This document shows positions 7,048-13,284 of a stretch of DNA of 64,000 nucleotides, in pieces. Each line of letters begins with the position of its first letter. The first letter of the stretch is position 1. The stretch lies in the NCBI RefSeq assembly GCF_002252445.1, contig NZ_NNRJ01000019.1, positions 248,001 to 312,000 of the forward strand, read 5' to 3'. The position numbers and the translations under genes were made by a program. Origin of the DNA: Brucella thiophenivorans. GTDB lineage: Bacteria > Pseudomonadota > Alphaproteobacteria > Rhizobiales > Rhizobiaceae. Below the pieces are notes generated by a model. It was not told the origin of the DNA. It saw only the letters and a list, made by a program, of their open reading frames with translations, and searched no databases.

Positions 7048-7298
7048 GCTAAACCACCGACAAAGCCGCTCATTTCTTTAAGGCGCACCATGGATAGGCG
7101 CATATTGCCTTTACAGCCGCGTCCTTTGCAGCGTGCCATGCTCTCGATCTGATCGAGATAGAGCTGTGAGCGATCAACCGTCTCGCAGAGCAATAGCTTA
7201 TCGGTATAGGCCATCCGGTTACATTTCCGGCAAATCAGCTCAAGCTTTTGATCGTCTGCCAGATCTCCGACTTTGATATGAGTTTTCCAGTTTCCCAT
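7044..7298 (-). CDS. 84-residue cysteine-rich protein coupled to the Y-family polymerase
   Basis: The start ATG overlaps the polymerase stop codon (TGATG), the best evidence for this start; the frame is open upstream but inside the polymerase gene. The protein has two cysteine pairs, CRKC near residue 25 and CKGRGC near residue 62, which would make one four-cysteine zinc site separated by about 35 residues (LLLCETVDRSQLYLDQIE). It ends in a hydrophobic GFVGGLA. It resembles small phage zinc-finger proteins in general form, but I cannot assign a family. Tight coupling to the polymerase suggests similar amounts of both proteins and perhaps a common task in lesion bypass. Confidence 0.7.
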   Translation of the reverse strand: MGNWKTHIKVGDLADDQKLELICRKCNRMAYTDKLLLCETVDRSQLYLDQIESMARCKGRGCKGNMRLSMVRLKEMSGFVGGLA

Positions 7299-8572
7299 CA
7301 CCAGAAGTCCTCGGCTGATGGAATGCGGGTATAGCTGATCTTTCCGCCAACGTGTCCGCCTGCCGGTGGCTTCCATTCTCCCATGCTGACGATTGTGCTG
7401 GAATATTTGCTGTTAAGCTTATCGACAGCACCGTTGGCGCGTTCCCACTTCTGGCGCAGTTTGTCGTCATTATTGAGGAGATCAATCTGGCGCTCATCAG
7501 CCGGCGAAAGATCATATAGGGTGACGCCAACCCGGAAGATTGTCGTGCCTTTCGGAAACTCTCGGCGGACACGATTCCATAGCGCATTAAGACCAGCCAA
7601 GATGGCTTGATCGTCATTCACGACGGATAGTCCTTGTTTGCCCAGCCATGAGCCTTCATGGATCGACAGCCAGAGCCATAAGCCACCAGCATAGAAGTTT
7701 TCACGGCGCAGGCGACGCGCGGCCTTAGTGAGTAGCAGGCGTGAGATCTCGTAAGCGCCATCGATTTTGCGGGATTCTGGCGGCAGCACGCGCCCATGGC
7801 CAAACATACCGCGCTGTTGCTCTGGCGCTTGGATGTCATATCCATGCAGGGCATACCACAGCCGCTCACCATTCACGTTGTTCCAGATCTTGCGCATATG
7901 CTTCGGCTGTAAAGCGTAAAGCTGCTCTGTGGTGTAGACGCGGTTTTTATAGAGGCGTTGCGCCAAGCTCGATCCAATGCCGGGAATGTCTTCTAGCTGA
8001 ATTTTCAGCAAAGGTGCTGGCATCGATGCAGGATGCCAGATCGCAAGGCCATTGCCATAGCTGCCGTGACGCTTGCTTTCGTCTTTCCCAGCCTTGCAGG
8101 CAATCTTCGCCAGCTGGCGGTTCGCAGCGAAACCGATAGAGCTGGTGATGTATGGCCCGATATTGTCAGCTATAGCGGCCTTGATGCGGGCGGAAAGTAA
8201 TTCAGGATCTCGCTTGCCACTATCGTCCAGCACGCACGTCAGCTCATCGATGCTCTTGGCTGTATCAATCGCGATGACGGTTTCAATCTCGCAGAGCAGC
8301 GCGTTATGCGCTCGTCGGTATAGATCTGGGTTCTGTGGCACGAGAATGAGATCCGGACAAACCCGAAGCGCGTCCTTGATTGGCATCACATTCTTCACGC
8401 CCATCGCTTTCGCCTCTTTTGAGCAGGCGATTACGGCGGTTCGATTGGTGCCTTCAAAAGGAACAACACCGATTGGCCGACCCCGCAGACGCTTGTCGCA
8501 CTGTTGCTCGACCGACGCAAAGAAACCGTCAAAGTCGAGGTACAGCCGTTCAATAGTCTCAGGCAGTCGCAT
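7298..8572 (-). CDS. Y-family translesion DNA polymerase (ImpB/MucB/SamB type)
   Basis: The protein has 424 residues. Catalytic carboxylates are in place: RLYLDFDGFFASVEQ (Asp13 and the steric-gate aromatic at F17/F18) and SIDE at 107 to 110. The palm/finger part continues with ITSSIGFAANRQLAKIA; the helix-hairpin-helix-like LEDIPGIGSSLAQRLY lies near 210; then comes a little-finger domain. Such enzymes copy past DNA damage and are usual SOS genes. I chose ATG 8572 because a TGAGG ribosome site precedes it; a GTG at 8623 is in frame but lacks one. No umuD-like partner gene is visible, so it may use the host clamp directly or host factors. It is the first gene of a four-gene operon with small overlapping genes, under a LexA-type box. 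Confidence 0.9.
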   Translation of the reverse strand: MRLPETIERLYLDFDGFFASVEQQCDKRLRGRPIGVVPFEGTNRTAVIACSKEAKAMGVKNVMPIKDALRVCPDLILVPQNPDLYRRAHNALLCEIETVIAIDTAKSIDELTCVLDDSGKRDPELLSARIKAAIADNIGPYITSSIGFAANRQLAKIACKAGKDESKRHGSYGNGLAIWHPASMPAPLLKIQLEDIPGIGSSLAQRLYKNRVYTTEQLYALQPKHMRKIWNNVNGERLWYALHGYDIQAPEQQRGMFGHGRVLPPESRKIDGAYEISRLLLTKAARRLRRENFYAGGLWLWLSIHEGSWLGKQGLSVVNDDQAILAGLNALWNRVRREFPKGTTIFRVGVTLYDLSPADERQIDLLNNDDKLRQKWERANGAVDKLNSKYSSTIVSMGEWKPPAGGHVGGKISYTRIPSAEDFW

Positions 8573-8625
8573 AGAAACCTCAGAAAAAAGGTCGAGCGAA
8601 ACCTGCCGCAAGTGCATAGGCACTC

Positions 8626-8834: not shown

Positions 8835-9107
8835 ATTCATTGAAAACGTTGGTAATCTTACCGCCTTCTAAGCCGGTGCTGCGAATAATTCTTGCATGAA
8901 AATTGATGCCTACACATTAAAATCAGGTCGGGTTAGACTAAATAACGCATAAAAAGCGTCACATATCGGGTTACCAGATGTGATACAAAGCTTTGATTAA
9001 TTCTTGCTATCTAGTTGAAATATATAGCTTGGTTTTTGGTGCGGTTGCACGCCGACCGCAACGAGCATATTTGCAGCTATAATACGATTGCTTTGCACCG
9101 AAAAATA

Positions 9108-9587
9108 TTAAGCCATAAATTTTCTTTTTAAGTTGCGTCGAGCCTTTTTAGCTTTACGCTCCAGAGATCGCGAAGCAATCAATACTTCACTTAACCGCCC
9201 GGCTTCAACCTCGCGATCAGGATCACCAAAGCTACCACCGGTCGCGGCTGAGGCTAATTTGAGAAACTCATCATTGCACTCTGATACCTCAGGACCTTTG
9301 AATAGATCTGAGATTATTTGCGTTACTTCATGTTGCTGCGCAACCATATGGGCTCGAAGAACGATGTCTTCACTTCCCAAATCTTTAGCAGAGTTTAACC
9401 AAAACTTTTCGGTATACTCTCCCAAAAGTTGGATGCTCTTTATCATATCCTGCAGATCAGCGTCTCGCTGCGCTTCAACGCTCTGGCTTGAACGCGACCA
9501 AGACTCAATCCACTTAGCAGTGAAGTTTGCTATCAAGGCTCCGGTGCCAGCTAAAAAAATCGTGCCAAATGCCCCGCCGATGTCCAT
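9108..9587 (-). CDS. Membrane-anchored protein of the STAS/ATPase cassette, unknown family
   Basis: The 159-residue protein has one N-terminal hydrophobic segment (about 3 to 24, IGGAFGTIFLAGTGALIANFTA) and then a mostly helical, charged cytoplasmic part. This part has WIESWSRSS just after the membrane and a long helix around AQRDADLQDMIKSIQLLGEYTEKFW. It ends in a strongly basic tail (about 138 to 159, SLERKAKKARRNLKRKFMA). It starts five bases after the DUF4325 gene, with the Shine-Dalgarno GGGATGA inside the end of that gene, so it belongs to the same transcript. I do not recognise a family. As the third gene after a kinase-like ATPase and a STAS-like switch protein, it is the natural candidate for the output or target of the switch, but this is inference. 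Confidence 0.7.
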   Translation of the reverse strand: MDIGGAFGTIFLAGTGALIANFTAKWIESWSRSSQSVEAQRDADLQDMIKSIQLLGEYTEKFWLNSAKDLGSEDIVLRAHMVAQQHEVTQIISDLFKGPEVSECNDEFLKLASAATGGSFGDPDREVEAGRLSEVLIASRSLERKAKKARRNLKRKFMA

Positions 9588-9592
9588 TTAGG

Positions 9593-9919
9593 TCATCCCA
9601 AATTTTTGCTAGGGGATGAATCGACATATCTCCAAATAAGACTTTCGTAGGCAAGAAATGGACCGCTAGCTTTAATGCTTATAAGTTTATGCACCAATTC
9701 TTTACCAAACCCACTGCGCACTAAACCGCCAAAAGCCTCTTCCAAGAACGATGAAGAATAGCCGACCGTGCCGTCAAGTATGATCGTCAAAGGCTCGTTA
9801 TTCTGAAGGGCTGGAACAAGATATCTGTTTCGAAATTCTTCCCCGCTGCCATTACCGTGCTTCCGATATCGGCCTCCCGGATATTTGGTAAAATCGTTAG
9901 CGATGCTGATCGTTTTCAT
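9593..9919 (-). CDS. STAS-like domain protein (DUF4325)
   Basis: The 108-residue protein is almost wholly one DUF4325 domain: FTKYPGGRYRKHGNGSGEEFRN at its start (residues 10 to 31), a hydrophobic strand LTIILDGTVGY, and the signature SSSFLEEAFGGLV at 55 to 67. STAS-like domains form an alpha/beta sandwich, as in anti-anti-sigma factors of the SpoIIAA type, where a serine at this loop is phosphorylated by the partner kinase; here a run of serines sits at that place. The start ATG 9919 lies inside the 3' end of the ATPase gene, so translation is probably coupled. DUF4325 genes are often next to or fused with histidine-kinase-like ATPases. What this pair controls is unknown. Confidence 0.85.
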   Translation of the reverse strand: MKTISIANDFTKYPGGRYRKHGNGSGEEFRNRYLVPALQNNEPLTIILDGTVGYSSSFLEEAFGGLVRSGFGKELVHKLISIKASGPFLAYESLIWRYVDSSPSKNLG

Positions 9920-10985
9920 TGGGTAGTTCCTCTGACGAATCTTTAAATGCGTCTGCATTCATGCTCCATTCAATGAGCGTTCCGCCTATGTGGTAATCAT
10001 GATCTCGCGTCTCTATCGTATCATCTGCATGGTAAACTATTTCACCTTTACCACTCAATATTCTTAGGTAACCATTCGGAGCTCCAGTTACCACATCACT
10101 CATCCTCTTCAAACCCAACCCGCGGTGGCTAAGGCCGGTTCTTGTCCTTCCAACCTCAAGAGCTGCACGTAGCATGTGTGAATCGTTCGGAATGAGATCA
10201 CTTGTCCATGAAGCTATTTTCGCTCGCACATTTTCATATAGGCTCGCTTGAGGCAAAGTGAATGGTATCCCTGCACCTTGATCGAATACAAAGAACCTCA
10301 AGGAAGTCGTATTTAAGTCTAGGCTACTAGCGGCCCACCATCTGTGGTCTGCAAATGGATGCCTAGGGGTGAAATTGTCTGGGTATGCATGATTAATAGC
10401 ATTTTCTGCGGCTTCCATAAGTCCTGCGAACATTTCAGGATTGGCTGTGAAGCCCTCTAACACACCTCGGAATTGTTCTTGGATTTGGTTGATTTTATAA
10501 CCATCCGTTTTAACCCCTGACGTCAGAGGAGTGAGTGTAAAATTATGAGGAGCAAATTCGAGCGTCACAGGCTTCAGGCCGAGGAGCTCAAACACTCCCA
10601 AATCAGACAATAAGCTTCTAACAGTTGGATCCCATTGTTGGGAGTCGCGTACTCGTAATCTCGTTTTTTTGACGAGTGACCATCTGTGAAACTCGGCTGC
10701 AAGTACGATGGCGACAGGCACAGACAGGCTTTTTATTGACTTCAAATCAATGAAAACATTAGTTGTTTTAGGATCAGACGCTAGCGTTCCATCTCGAAAA
10801 GCGTCGAGAAATTGGACGGTCTCAGCAAAATTATCCTTAAAACTGAGTATACTTGGCGCAGAAATCAACACTTCTTGTCGCGGAATTCTTGAGTGAGTTT
10901 TGTTCTTCCGATTCAATGCTCTTCGCCAGCGCTTAATCGCCCTTGCGATGAGTCTTATCTTCAGCTTCTCGTTTATCTTTTTCAC
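9897..10985 (-). CDS. STAS-like plus histidine-kinase-like ATPase protein
   Basis: The protein has 362 residues. A strongly basic N-terminal helix (1 to 35, KIRLIARAIKRWRRALNRK) is followed by a STAS-like alpha/beta half (about 36 to 137, VFIDLKSIKSLSVPVAIVLAAEF). Then comes a GHKL ATPase domain: N-box LMEAAENAINHAYP at 189 to 202, G1 box DQGAGIP at 235 to 241, G2 region GLSHRGLGL at 284 to 292 and a GTLIEW end. There is no phospho-acceptor histidine domain or sensor, so it is not an ordinary two-component kinase but looks like an anti-sigma-type serine kinase of the SpoIIAB kind, with its own STAS half. Its start is GTG 10985, preceded by GAGGGG. It is first in a three-gene operon. The basic N-terminus may bind membrane or nucleic acid. 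Confidence 0.85.
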   Translation of the reverse strand: MKKINEKLKIRLIARAIKRWRRALNRKNKTHSRIPRQEVLISAPSILSFKDNFAETVQFLDAFRDGTLASDPKTTNVFIDLKSIKSLSVPVAIVLAAEFHRWSLVKKTRLRVRDSQQWDPTVRSLLSDLGVFELLGLKPVTLEFAPHNFTLTPLTSGVKTDGYKINQIQEQFRGVLEGFTANPEMFAGLMEAAENAINHAYPDNFTPRHPFADHRWWAASSLDLNTTSLRFFVFDQGAGIPFTLPQASLYENVRAKIASWTSDLIPNDSHMLRAALEVGRTRTGLSHRGLGLKRMSDVVTGAPNGYLRILSGKGEIVYHADDTIETRDHDYHIGGTLIEWSMNADAFKDSSEELPNENDQHR

Positions 10986-11088
10986 AGTCGCCCCTCGCTC
11001 TGCTCCGCAAATTTGTTGAATAACCTCAATAAAAAGAAAATCAAATTTAAATCACTGAGCGTCGCTATTTGCGGCATAATTAGAAGTT

Positions 11089-12165
11089 TCAGCGGCAAGG
11101 GGGGGCGAGCCATTTCCATCCAGTATATTTATCGCCCGTCTGACGAATATGTGTATAACGCTTCAAGGAACTCCATGAGCGATGTCCAGAAACCATCGCG
11201 ACGTGCGGAATATTCCAACCCATCTCAAAAAGGCGTGAAATACCTTCATGTCTAAGATCGTGGAAATGCAAGTCTTCTATACCAAGAAACTGACAGGTTC
11301 TTGTAAACCGAGCGCTTACGGTGTTCGGGTGGTAAGGGAAAATAGATTCCTTCTTGCGTGGCATTGATTCTATAATTGCAATGGCCTCGTCAGTCAGATC
11401 ACACCAAACGTCATTACCCATTTTCTCACCAGGGTTTTTCATATCGCGAACAAGAACTCGCTTGTGATCCTTCTCATAATCAACCCATCTAATGCGGCAA
11501 ATTTCGTCCTGGCGACGGGTCGAAAAGATGGCGAACAATGTGACTTTGCACATTGGCATGTGCTGCTTCACTCGCGTCTCGCGATCTGTGAAGTAGTCTA
11601 AAATTTTATCTAGTTCGCCGAGTGTTGGACGGCGGTTCCGCTGTTTGGACTTCGTTATCAGTCCCAATCTCTTCATAACAAGCTGTGCATCAATCATCGC
11701 TTGCTGGTCTAACGGCAATCCCCATGCAGGACGAGCAAGCGCAAAAACGGATGCAAGGTGAGAGATCCAGTTTCCTACGGTTTGCGGCTCACGACCATCA
11801 TTAAGAAACTCTGCAAACTTAATGATGTCTTGGCTAGTGATGGATGAACATTCTTTGTCGGCAATAGGAAAGCTCTTAATAGCATTCAAAACTTGTCCCT
11901 TAGTGCGGCCAATTTCTCTAAGGCTGGTCTCAATGTATTTATCAATCGCGTCGGAAAGTTTGCTCGACGGGCGTTTCGGGCGGCCAAGTTGGGCGGTGTC
12001 TTTCTTCAATTCCGTTTCGCGCTTTTTAATCCAGGCTGTTGCTGCTGCCCTCCTGTCGAATGTACGCGATTCGCGATGGACAACTTTTCCATCACTTTTC
12101 AGTAGGATTTGTGCTAGGTACGCGATTGATCCGTTCGATCGCGGGCGTTCGATTATGGTTCCCAT
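11089..12165 (-). CDS. Tyrosine recombinase, dusA-associated integrase
   Basis: The 358-residue protein has an N-terminal arm-binding part, a core-binding domain (about 65 to 165) and a catalytic domain with the tyrosine-recombinase residues: Arg in FSTRRQDEICRIRW (about 217), HDLRH (302 to 306), SGHRSW (His about 328) and the nucleophile Tyr in KRYTHI (about 337). I start it at ATG 12165, after a GGAGGA site; the frame is open to 12258 but without good support. It is transcribed away from dusA, and its start is less than 100 bp from the dusA start. Integrases of prophages and islands that use the 5' end of dusA as target are known in Proteobacteria, and this gene has exactly that position. 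Confidence 0.93.
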   Translation of the reverse strand: MGTIIERPRSNGSIAYLAQILLKSDGKVVHRESRTFDRRAAATAWIKKRETELKKDTAQLGRPKRPSSKLSDAIDKYIETSLREIGRTKGQVLNAIKSFPIADKECSSITSQDIIKFAEFLNDGREPQTVGNWISHLASVFALARPAWGLPLDQQAMIDAQLVMKRLGLITKSKQRNRRPTLGELDKILDYFTDRETRVKQHMPMCKVTLFAIFSTRRQDEICRIRWVDYEKDHKRVLVRDMKNPGEKMGNDVWCDLTDEAIAIIESMPRKKESIFPYHPNTVSARFTRTCQFLGIEDLHFHDLRHEGISRLFEMGWNIPHVAMVSGHRSWSSLKRYTHIRQTGDKYTGWKWLAPPCR

Positions 12166-12400
12166 CGGTACAACATCCTCCAAAAGTACAACAGCCGTGT
12201 TGTACTCTACGTCAAAACAGACGTAAAGAGGCCTAAATGAGATGAAATAAGCAGGCAAGAAATGGCGCTAAGTTACGGAAAAGAAAAGAACTCATTGATT
12301 TCTAATGAGCCGAAATTTGCCGTAGCGCCTATGCTGGATTGGTCCGATAGACATTGTCGGTATTTTCACCGGCTGTTTTCAAAGCGCACACTTCTCTACA
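12166..12400. other. Probable right attachment junction at the dusA 5' end
   Basis: The stretch between the integrase start and the conserved MLDWSDRHC codons of dusA should contain the attR core, because known dusA integrases recombine at the 5' part of the gene. I looked for a second copy of the 12320 to 12365 sequence in the left 12 kb and found none, so the exact core cannot be given and the other end probably lies outside the window. Confidence 0.35.
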
Positions 12401-13284
12401 CGGAAATGGTTGTGGCCGATGCAGCCATCCATGGCCCGCGTGACCGGCTGATGGGTTTTGATGCGGCAGAGCACCCAATTGCTTTGCAGCTTGGCGGCTC
12501 TGACCCGGTTAAATTGCAGGAAGCAGCGCGGATTGGCGCGGGCTTTGGCTATGATGAAATCAATCTCAATGTCGGTTGCCCTTCTGATCGTGTGCAGTCG
12601 GGAACTTTCGGCGCGTGTCTCATGCAGACACCGGATGTGGTTGCCCGCTGCGTCGCCGCAATGAAAGAAGTTGTTTCAGTGCCTGTAACTGTCAAATGCC
12701 GAATTGGTGTTGATGATCAGGATCCGGAAGTAGCTCTTGATGCTGTTGCAGATCAGGTGCTTAACGCAGGAGCGGATGCGCTTTGGGTGCATGCCCGCAA
12801 AGCATGGCTAAAGGGCCTTTCGCCCAAGGAAAACCGCGATATTCCGCCGCTGGATTATGGTCGTGTCTATCGTCTTAAGCAGCGTCTGCCGGGGATATTT
12901 ATCGGCATCAATGGTGGCATTGCTACGCTTGAAGAGGCCGTTTCGCATCTTGATCATGTTGATGGCGTCATGCTGGGGCGCGCTGCTTATCACAATCCGG
13001 CAATTCTCGTAGATGTTGATCAGCGTATTTATGGTAGTGAAGAAAAGCCGAAAGACATTTCAGAAGTTATTGAATCAATGTGTGAATATGTTGACAGGCA
13101 TATTGCCGATGGCGGCAGGCTTTCGCATATCAGCCGACATATGATTGGCTTGTTCACGGGGCAGCCTGGCGCACGTCGCTGGCGTCAGATGCTCTCGACC
13201 GATGCATCAAAGCCCGATGCTAATAGTAATTTGTTGCGTCAAGCCTACGCGTCGGTCATGGAAGCCAGCGCTGAGGCAGCCTGA
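12262..13284 (+). CDS. dusA: tRNA-dihydrouridine synthase A
   Basis: This FMN enzyme reduces U20/U20a in the D-loop of tRNAs. The 340-residue protein shows the usual layout: VAPMLDWSDRHCRYFHR near 21 to 37, EMVVADA, ALQLGGSDP, the active-site cysteine in LNVGCPSDRVQ (about residue 107) and a phosphate-binding end INGGI...GVMLGRAAYHNP. Its start is next to a divergent integrase, and the first 15 to 20 codons (ALSYGKEKNSLISNE) are less conserved in character than the rest, so they may have been supplied by the integrated element. Its stop lies directly against the stop of the convergent aspartic-protease gene. The enzyme itself looks intact. Confidence 0.95.
   Translation: MALSYGKEKNSLISNEPKFAVAPMLDWSDRHCRYFHRLFSKRTLLYTEMVVADAAIHGPRDRLMGFDAAEHPIALQLGGSDPVKLQEAARIGAGFGYDEINLNVGCPSDRVQSGTFGACLMQTPDVVARCVAAMKEVVSVPVTVKCRIGVDDQDPEVALDAVADQVLNAGADALWVHARKAWLKGLSPKENRDIPPLDYGRVYRLKQRLPGIFIGINGGIATLEEAVSHLDHVDGVMLGRAAYHNPAILVDVDQRIYGSEEKPKDISEVIESMCEYVDRHIADGGRLSHISRHMIGLFTGQPGARRWRQMLSTDASKPDANSNLLRQAYASVMEASAEAA

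Follow-up and report, generated by a model that had tools for sequence, protein, structure and literature searches.

What might a three-gene operon do that sits beside the integrase of an alphaproteobacterial prophage? The operon studied here lies in a 64,000-nucleotide stretch of Brucella thiophenivorans DNA (contig NZ_NNRJ01000019.1, positions 248,001 to 312,000; the whole stretch is called the window below). It encodes a STAS-GHKL kinase-like protein, a free STAS-like protein of family DUF4325 and a small third protein with an N-terminal hydrophobic anchor (Table 1). This trio is probably a sister of VapKSC, an anti-phage toxin switch composed of a STAS-GHKL kinase, a STAS antitoxin and a PIN nuclease (Chambers et al., EMBO J 2026, PMC13373217). 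An earlier note on this DNA had recognized a minus-strand operon of touching or overlapping genes for a GHKL ATPase with a STAS-like half, a free DUF4325 protein and a membrane-helix protein. That observation holds: the 3' end of the kinase-like gene lies inside the DUF4325 gene (ATG at 9919), and 5 nt separate the DUF4325 stop codon from the start of the third gene. The note also knew of no described system with this trio. That stands for the exact combination, for which we found no published description (most subscription papers and bioRxiv preprints being outside the coverage), and gives way where the wider architecture is concerned, VapKSC being a described sister system with another effector.

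Homology of the kinase and STAS pair

CapK and VapK are described as GHKL kinases with a STAS half that phosphorylate a STAS partner; single-stranded DNA (ssDNA) was demonstrated to activate CapK and is proposed to activate VapK (PMC13373217). The word 'transmembrane' occurs nowhere in that paper. The S48E substitution in VapS acts as a phosphomimic and abolishes inhibition of VapC, the vapKSC operon gives E. coli about 2 logs of protection against phage Bas42, and 103 of 289 VapKSC instances have a defence gene no more than 10 kb away (PMC13373217).

The window-type kinases (profile A5) align over both halves with five vapK-type kinases (profile A7; hhalign, 98.9%, E 2.7e-17); these comparators include two, from loci L192 and L194, with no identified PIN gene, and A7 is therefore a vapK-type set, not a pure VapK set. 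The kinase profile also directly matches L184, L186 and L183 (E 5e-14, 2e-9 and 4e-8, respectively), the three kinase-DUF4325-PIN operons found in a scan of the phylum, where the PIN domain scores above the Pfam cut-off in L183 and L186 and below it in L184. The DUF4325 proteins likewise align with the STAS proteins paired with the five vapK-type kinases (hhalign, 94.2%, E 1.2e-7). Pfam family PF14213, to which the window STAS protein is assigned at E 5e-12, matches 66 aa of Escherichia VapS at E 1.1e-14, and the DUF4325 profile matches the full crystallised VapS chain weakly (E 0.27). Because the two proteins are homologous to a pair of a kind already studied by experiment, it is very probable that the kinase acts on the DUF4325 protein, in keeping with the phospho-switch that the earlier note had proposed. 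Fusions of kinase and DUF4325 in other subfamilies (L024, L188, L191, L197 and L199) were also counted in favour of this reading. These are single open reading frames (ORFs) that match both profiles, with the third gene absent. A further five proteins of about 334-373 aa (L178, L180, L181, L190 and L193) carry DUF4325 at the C-terminal end, are not matched by the kinase profile and apparently represent another fused family. As to the vapK-type loci themselves, L184 (genome G541) comes from the window's own bacterial family, and L192 and L194 are kinase-DUF4325 pairs, with a UbiE-type methyltransferase gene downstream in L192.

The GHKL residues E191 and N195, D235 and G237, and G289 and G291, which we take to be the N, G1 and G2 boxes, respectively, are invariant in 65/65 kinases. 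Among 68 aligned STAS proteins, the column of window residue S57 is serine throughout, and that of S56 holds Ser in 61, Thr in one, Ala in four and Pro in two. Either residue may be the phospho-acceptor. S56 aligns with a VapS serine, which we infer from the tag length to be S48 of PMC13373217.

The kinase starts with a basic helix (residues 6-31) ahead of an alpha/beta STAS-like half, and its basic N-terminal extension has a net charge of +6 to +22 in 62/62 members measured. The GHKL fold is nearest that of SpoIIAB (structural rows 1-5; row 6 is RsbW); in Foldseek searches the kinase model matched GHKL proteins with mostly low TM-scores, a result that bears on the GHKL domain and not on the STAS half. 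Outside the kinase's fold, the likeness to the SpoIIAB-SpoIIAA and RsbW-RsbV pairs ends: the window kinase carries a STAS half of its own, and the third gene encodes an anchored protein. In the loci opened, no gene next to the trio is annotated as a sigma factor; the window neighbours are the integrase and the polymerase. CapK and CapS resemble the trio in that a STAS-half GHKL kinase phosphorylates a STAS protein and the pair is linked to immune operons, but CapK has a helix-turn-helix (HTH) and CapS a winged HTH and repressor role (PMC13373217). The window STAS protein has 108 aa of DUF4325 only, and no HTH family appears among the Pfam matches of the kinases.

With VapKSC the trio shares the three-gene order of kinase, STAS protein and output, a kinase homologous over both halves and a STAS protein of family DUF4325. 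We nevertheless do not assign it to VapKSC, because the defining PIN nuclease is absent: no PIN family occurs among the Pfam matches of 68 third proteins, the third-gene profile (A4) scores 0.2% against a PIN set in hhalign, and the third gene encodes a membrane-anchored protein instead. The window-type kinase differs further in its basic N-terminal helix (in comparators L183 and L186 the protein starts directly with the STAS half) and in a Trp216-Trp217 pair that is invariant in its family, and the STAS protein in a conserved P-x-G-R-Y...S-G-E-x-F-R block.

Recurrence of the trio

Beyond the window genome, queries with the kinase only found 19 relatives: one on a phage, five on plasmids, three among 99 related genomes, one on a Shinella contig and nine among 384 other genomes of the class (E <1e-50). 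The weakest of these are L010 (E 5e-7) and L012, which is cut by an insertion sequence (E 7e-4). Directly after the kinase, and in the same order, a DUF4325 gene and then a small third gene follow in 18 of the 19, and at the other, L016, the contig end cuts the locus; the third ORF in Novosphingobium is missing from the collection's gene table. The low frequency of the trio across the class fits mobile cargo. Weak kinase matches in five further class genomes (L024-L028) were rejected as trios, L024 being one of the fusions above, and a viral contig match (L002) proved to be a chance similarity within a large unrelated protein.

Homology of the third genes needs separate support. The first third-gene profile, A3, was seeded by nine third genes of the kinase relatives, which match it by construction because they seeded it, and its iterated form absorbed more loci. 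Profile A4, which draws on the window, Shinella and viral contigs, recognises third genes at L004-L009 and L012, though not at L010 and L011, and, of the eight trio-bearing class genomes, in six (L015, L017-L020 and L023, but not L021 and L022). The third proteins of Shinella and the window share 45% identity. Third-gene homology is thus shown free of circularity for 14 of the 18 loci, and the remaining four are linked by position, size and the iterated profile. Run over 385 class genomes, A4 gave 11 matches, nine of them credible (the window's own counted); L225 and L226 were dropped as probable chance coiled-coil similarity. All nine credible matches adjoin a DUF4325 gene, seven in known trios (the window included), one at a contig end (L222) and one in L218, and the third family therefore looks like a dedicated partner of the DUF4325 gene.

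A DUF4325 scan of viral sequences found 225 stretches and 215 relatives; the best 80 of these relatives were considered, one of which is the window's own prophage, leaving 79. This sample comprises the DUF4325 genes most like the window's and is not representative of the whole family; it holds near-duplicates, with 69 distinct DUF4325 proteins after a k-mer filter. All three genes occur in order in 70 of the 79 contigs (69 by script, plus L088, in which the STAS ORF was called too long). Among the others, the contig begins at the DUF4325 gene in L035, L060 and L070, the kinase side being cut off, and in L036 and L075 about 500 nt lie ahead of that gene; L098 has a partial kinase only, 333 nt away, L064 has a 151-aa ORF unrecognised by the profile, and neither partner gene was seen in L087 and L106. 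Short overlaps occur at junctions of kinase and STAS genes (for example -4 nt in 24/71, nearest start taken).

The trio occurs in both Alpha- and Gammaproteobacteria. In a DUF4325 scan of the phylum, 29 of 398 genomes had a match (31 matches at 30 loci), and eight loci are window-type trios, including the window's own (L179, L182, L185, L189, L195, L196, L198 and L202; the kinase ORF of L195 is partial); several other arrangements were seen besides these and the PIN operons. DNA similarity to one viral copy places the trio in at least 8 of 5,426 E. coli genomes, a lower bound, and profile matches confirmed all three genes at each of three E. coli loci, L206, L207 and L209, the first being near-identical to a profile member. 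A Leptospira interrogans plasmid (L173:3994-6796) encodes a kinase, a DUF4325 protein and a small gene unrecognised by the third-gene profiles, just before a nucleotidyltransferase/HepT pair. The gene table of Francisella phage KIRK lists consecutive 293-aa AS1-like, DUF4325 and 125-aa transmembrane proteins and gives no function for them (PMC7924643). The trio thus recurs with its third gene in independent searches, and the co-occurrence of the three families that the earlier note had proposed to look for is borne out, as is its inclusion of the third gene in the module; neither of the outcomes that the note had named as refuting, a single occurrence of the trio or a third gene that does not go with the other two, was seen. 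Two large Vibrio plasmids (L174:6001-6723 and L175:6001-6723) carry a trio-type DUF4325 gene with no kinase just upstream; in L174 the next gene encodes a protein of 126 aa that has a strong hydrophobic stretch and is unrecognised by the third-gene profile.

The third protein, a proposed mechanism and alternatives

Across 68 third proteins there is no invariant residue, the start Met alone exceeds 90%, and the strongest other columns (window numbering) are T116 (Thr in 57), F120 (Phe in 51) and A24 (Gly in 50), together with a consensus R-E-x-R-K-E-x-R stretch past the anchor. An N-terminal hydrophobic stretch was detected by threshold in 58/68; net charge just past the best hydrophobic stretch is positive in 59/68, and a second hydrophobic stretch occurs further along in 5/68. 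This post-anchor charge suggests that the bulk of the protein lies in the cytoplasm. No conserved catalytic residue set is evident over the 68 proteins, so a structural or membrane-perturbing role seems likelier than an enzymatic one. Profile matches in the Protein Data Bank (PDB) to a designed coiled coil (E 4e-7) and, more weakly, to others such as syntaxin and Cas10 were not accepted as homologous.

We hypothesize that the trio is a prophage-borne phospho-switch built like VapKSC around another effector, a toxin-antitoxin or defence module, and that its benefit is defence or abortive infection; on balance we favour this reading. The mechanism is likely the same as in VapKSC. At rest, the DUF4325 protein would bind the membrane-anchored third protein and hold it inactive. 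The kinase would sense infection or DNA damage, with a single-stranded nucleic acid signal as the leading guess, and once activated would phosphorylate the STAS protein at the Ser56/Ser57 pair. The phosphorylated STAS protein would then release the third protein, which would act at the inner membrane and cause growth stop or death of the infected cell before competing phage are released. That the third protein is an output restrained by the STAS protein is fairly probable, given an operon position equal to that of VapC and close co-occurrence with the DUF4325 gene; membrane damage, the trigger and phage protection are parts of the proposal that we only infer. More tentatively, the trio could represent an undescribed, widespread immune module of prophages and plasmids, in which a STAS-GHKL kinase senses nucleic acid and frees a membrane killer of a new, single-anchor class from a STAS antitoxin. 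The kinase and STAS protein would in that case be a plug-in trigger that evolution has joined to two or more unrelated effectors (a PIN RNase and a membrane protein), and the basic N-terminal helix would be a sensor of a new kind.

Several results weigh against this proposal. The third protein resembles no known toxin or pore: the window member has no match in Pfam, NCBIfam or PADLOC, and the Pfam matches over the 68 third proteins are singletons. PADLOC-DB 2.0.0 (2023; newer systems absent) matches no protein of the window trio, L206 or L207. Ten of the 68 third proteins have no clear N-terminal hydrophobic stretch at the threshold used. A4 misses the third gene at L010, at L011 and on the Leptospira plasmid, and a single third-gene family is therefore not established at every locus; in L218 the DUF4325 gene and third gene are present, and the available 1 kb shows no kinase. 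Within the aligned STAS stretch of the kinase, no conserved column holds an aromatic residue that can be matched to the one (F54/W68) that VapK and CapK use for ssDNA, in a comparison made without the Escherichia VapK sequence. A scan of 8900-11200 gave neither a promoter-like nor a terminator-like site. Activation of VapK itself by ssDNA could not be tested in the published study (PMC13373217).

The third protein could instead be a membrane sensor, a receptor for an envelope event such as phage injection that informs the kinase and STAS protein; their output would then be a regulator, of host or prophage, that the operon does not encode. Classical partner-switch pairs do regulate a protein encoded elsewhere, and an anchor followed by positive charge with no evident catalytic set would suit a receptor. 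We consider this unlikely: the kinase has a candidate sensor of its own in the basic extension, no single regulator gene recurs by the trio in the annotated loci opened (individual loci do have regulators nearby), and the third gene of the homologous VapKSC operon is the controlled toxin (PMC13373217). Somewhat less likely still is superinfection exclusion that spares the cell, with the membrane protein blocking entry or DNA injection by related phages and the kinase and STAS protein tuning it. The anchor, the prophage location opposite the late-gene strand in E. coli and a Marinobacter phage AS1 copy that adjoins repressor-type genes agree with such a role, but the trio is also found on plasmids whose opened stretches contain no phage genes, a phospho-switch exceeds the needs of an exclusion protein, and the homologous pair restrains a toxin. 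A role in regulating the induction of the prophage that carries it, or the timing of lysis, appears improbable. It would account for the position between antiterminator Q and holin in four E. coli regions and beside the integrase in the window, and is opposed by the strand orientation, by the plasmid copies and by unrelated cargo at the same E. coli spot (a PDC-S20-type KAP NTPase, a TIGR04255 set and a 343 + 179 aa pair).

If the switch to a membrane effector is correct, phosphorylation-controlled toxins would form a modular class with interchangeable effectors. An unannotated trio found even in some E. coli prophages would thereby be tied to kinase/antitoxin logic shown experimentally in 2026 (PMC13373217), and the model can be tested in ordinary laboratory strains by means of the copies from E. 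coli and from the Marinobacter phage.

Cargo slot and locus layout

The dusA-associated integrase family is known for integrases that abut dusA and for variable cargo (Farrugia et al. 2015, PMC4482086); these islands are the same carrier as that of the window copy, the vehicle and not the system. Two same-genus prophages share the window backbone of dusA, integrase, slot, polymerase and small genes and differ in slot contents. One (G006; integrase 87% and polymerase 92% identical to the window's) has a slot of about 4.9 kb with four ORFs of >200 aa, one of which is a strong match to the PADLOC defence candidate PDC-S31; the other (G017; 70% and 82%) has a D12 methyltransferase that also matches PD-Lambda-5_B. 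PADLOC matched five of ten integrase-side proteins of these two and more distant relatives: the PDC-S31 protein and the D12 methyltransferase strongly, a VapE-domain protein through its DnaG-type zinc finger, and two weakly as ATPases.

In four E. coli regions the trio lies between Q and holin on the strand opposite the late genes. The same spot in six other E. coli prophages holds opposite-strand cargo in three, namely the KAP NTPase (PDC-S20, E 4e-175), the TIGR04255 set and the 343 + 179 aa pair (PADLOC gave nothing for the latter two), and in the remaining three a same-strand methyltransferase or ATP-binding protein (two) or only a small gene of unknown function (one). These observations support a defence-type cargo slot. 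The earlier note's reading is supported as regards the phospho-switch pair, the third gene and the slot, and integrase adjacency is not supported as a general rule: a tyrosine integrase lies within 4 kb in 6 of the 79 viral loci, by a dusA-type profile that undercounts other integrases, and the four E. coli copies sit between Q and holin.

Table 1. Coordinates of the trio and its neighbours in the window
Feature	Position	Strand	Remarks
STAS-GHKL kinase-like protein, 362 aa	9897..10985	-	Basic N-terminal helix, STAS-like half, GHKL domain
STAS-like DUF4325 protein, 108 aa	9593..9919	-	Candidate phospho-acceptor/antitoxin
Third protein, 159 aa	9108..9587	-	N-terminal hydrophobic anchor, remainder presumably helical, T-G-x-x-F-E motif; candidate effector
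dusA-type tyrosine integrase of prophage	11089..12258	-	One border of cargo slot
dusA, integration target	12262..13284	+	Homologous dus genes beside related integrases
DNA polymerase gene, phrog_1268	7298..8623	-	Other border of cargo slot, conserved

The integrase gene lies 103 nt upstream of the kinase-like gene and abuts the gene that we take, from its protein sequence, to be dusA; the polymerase is presumably UmuC-like. The window kinase, for which Pfam, NCBIfam and PADLOC gave no match, matches phrog_3364 (E 8e-44), a family listed as of unknown function. The sole find in a search for a prophage attachment repeat was a 13-bp match to the start of dusA, 37.7 kb off, and the prophage end is undefined because the flanks of this match differ. 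Among viral contigs of >=30 kb, the trio lies <=3 kb from a contig end in 17 of 51, against 7.0 expected, in a count that retains near-duplicates and in which the end of an IMG/VR contig does not always coincide with that of a prophage. The 343 + 179 aa pair at the Q-holin spot (L212:1223-2786) is a two-gene cassette on the opposite strand of its E. coli prophage.
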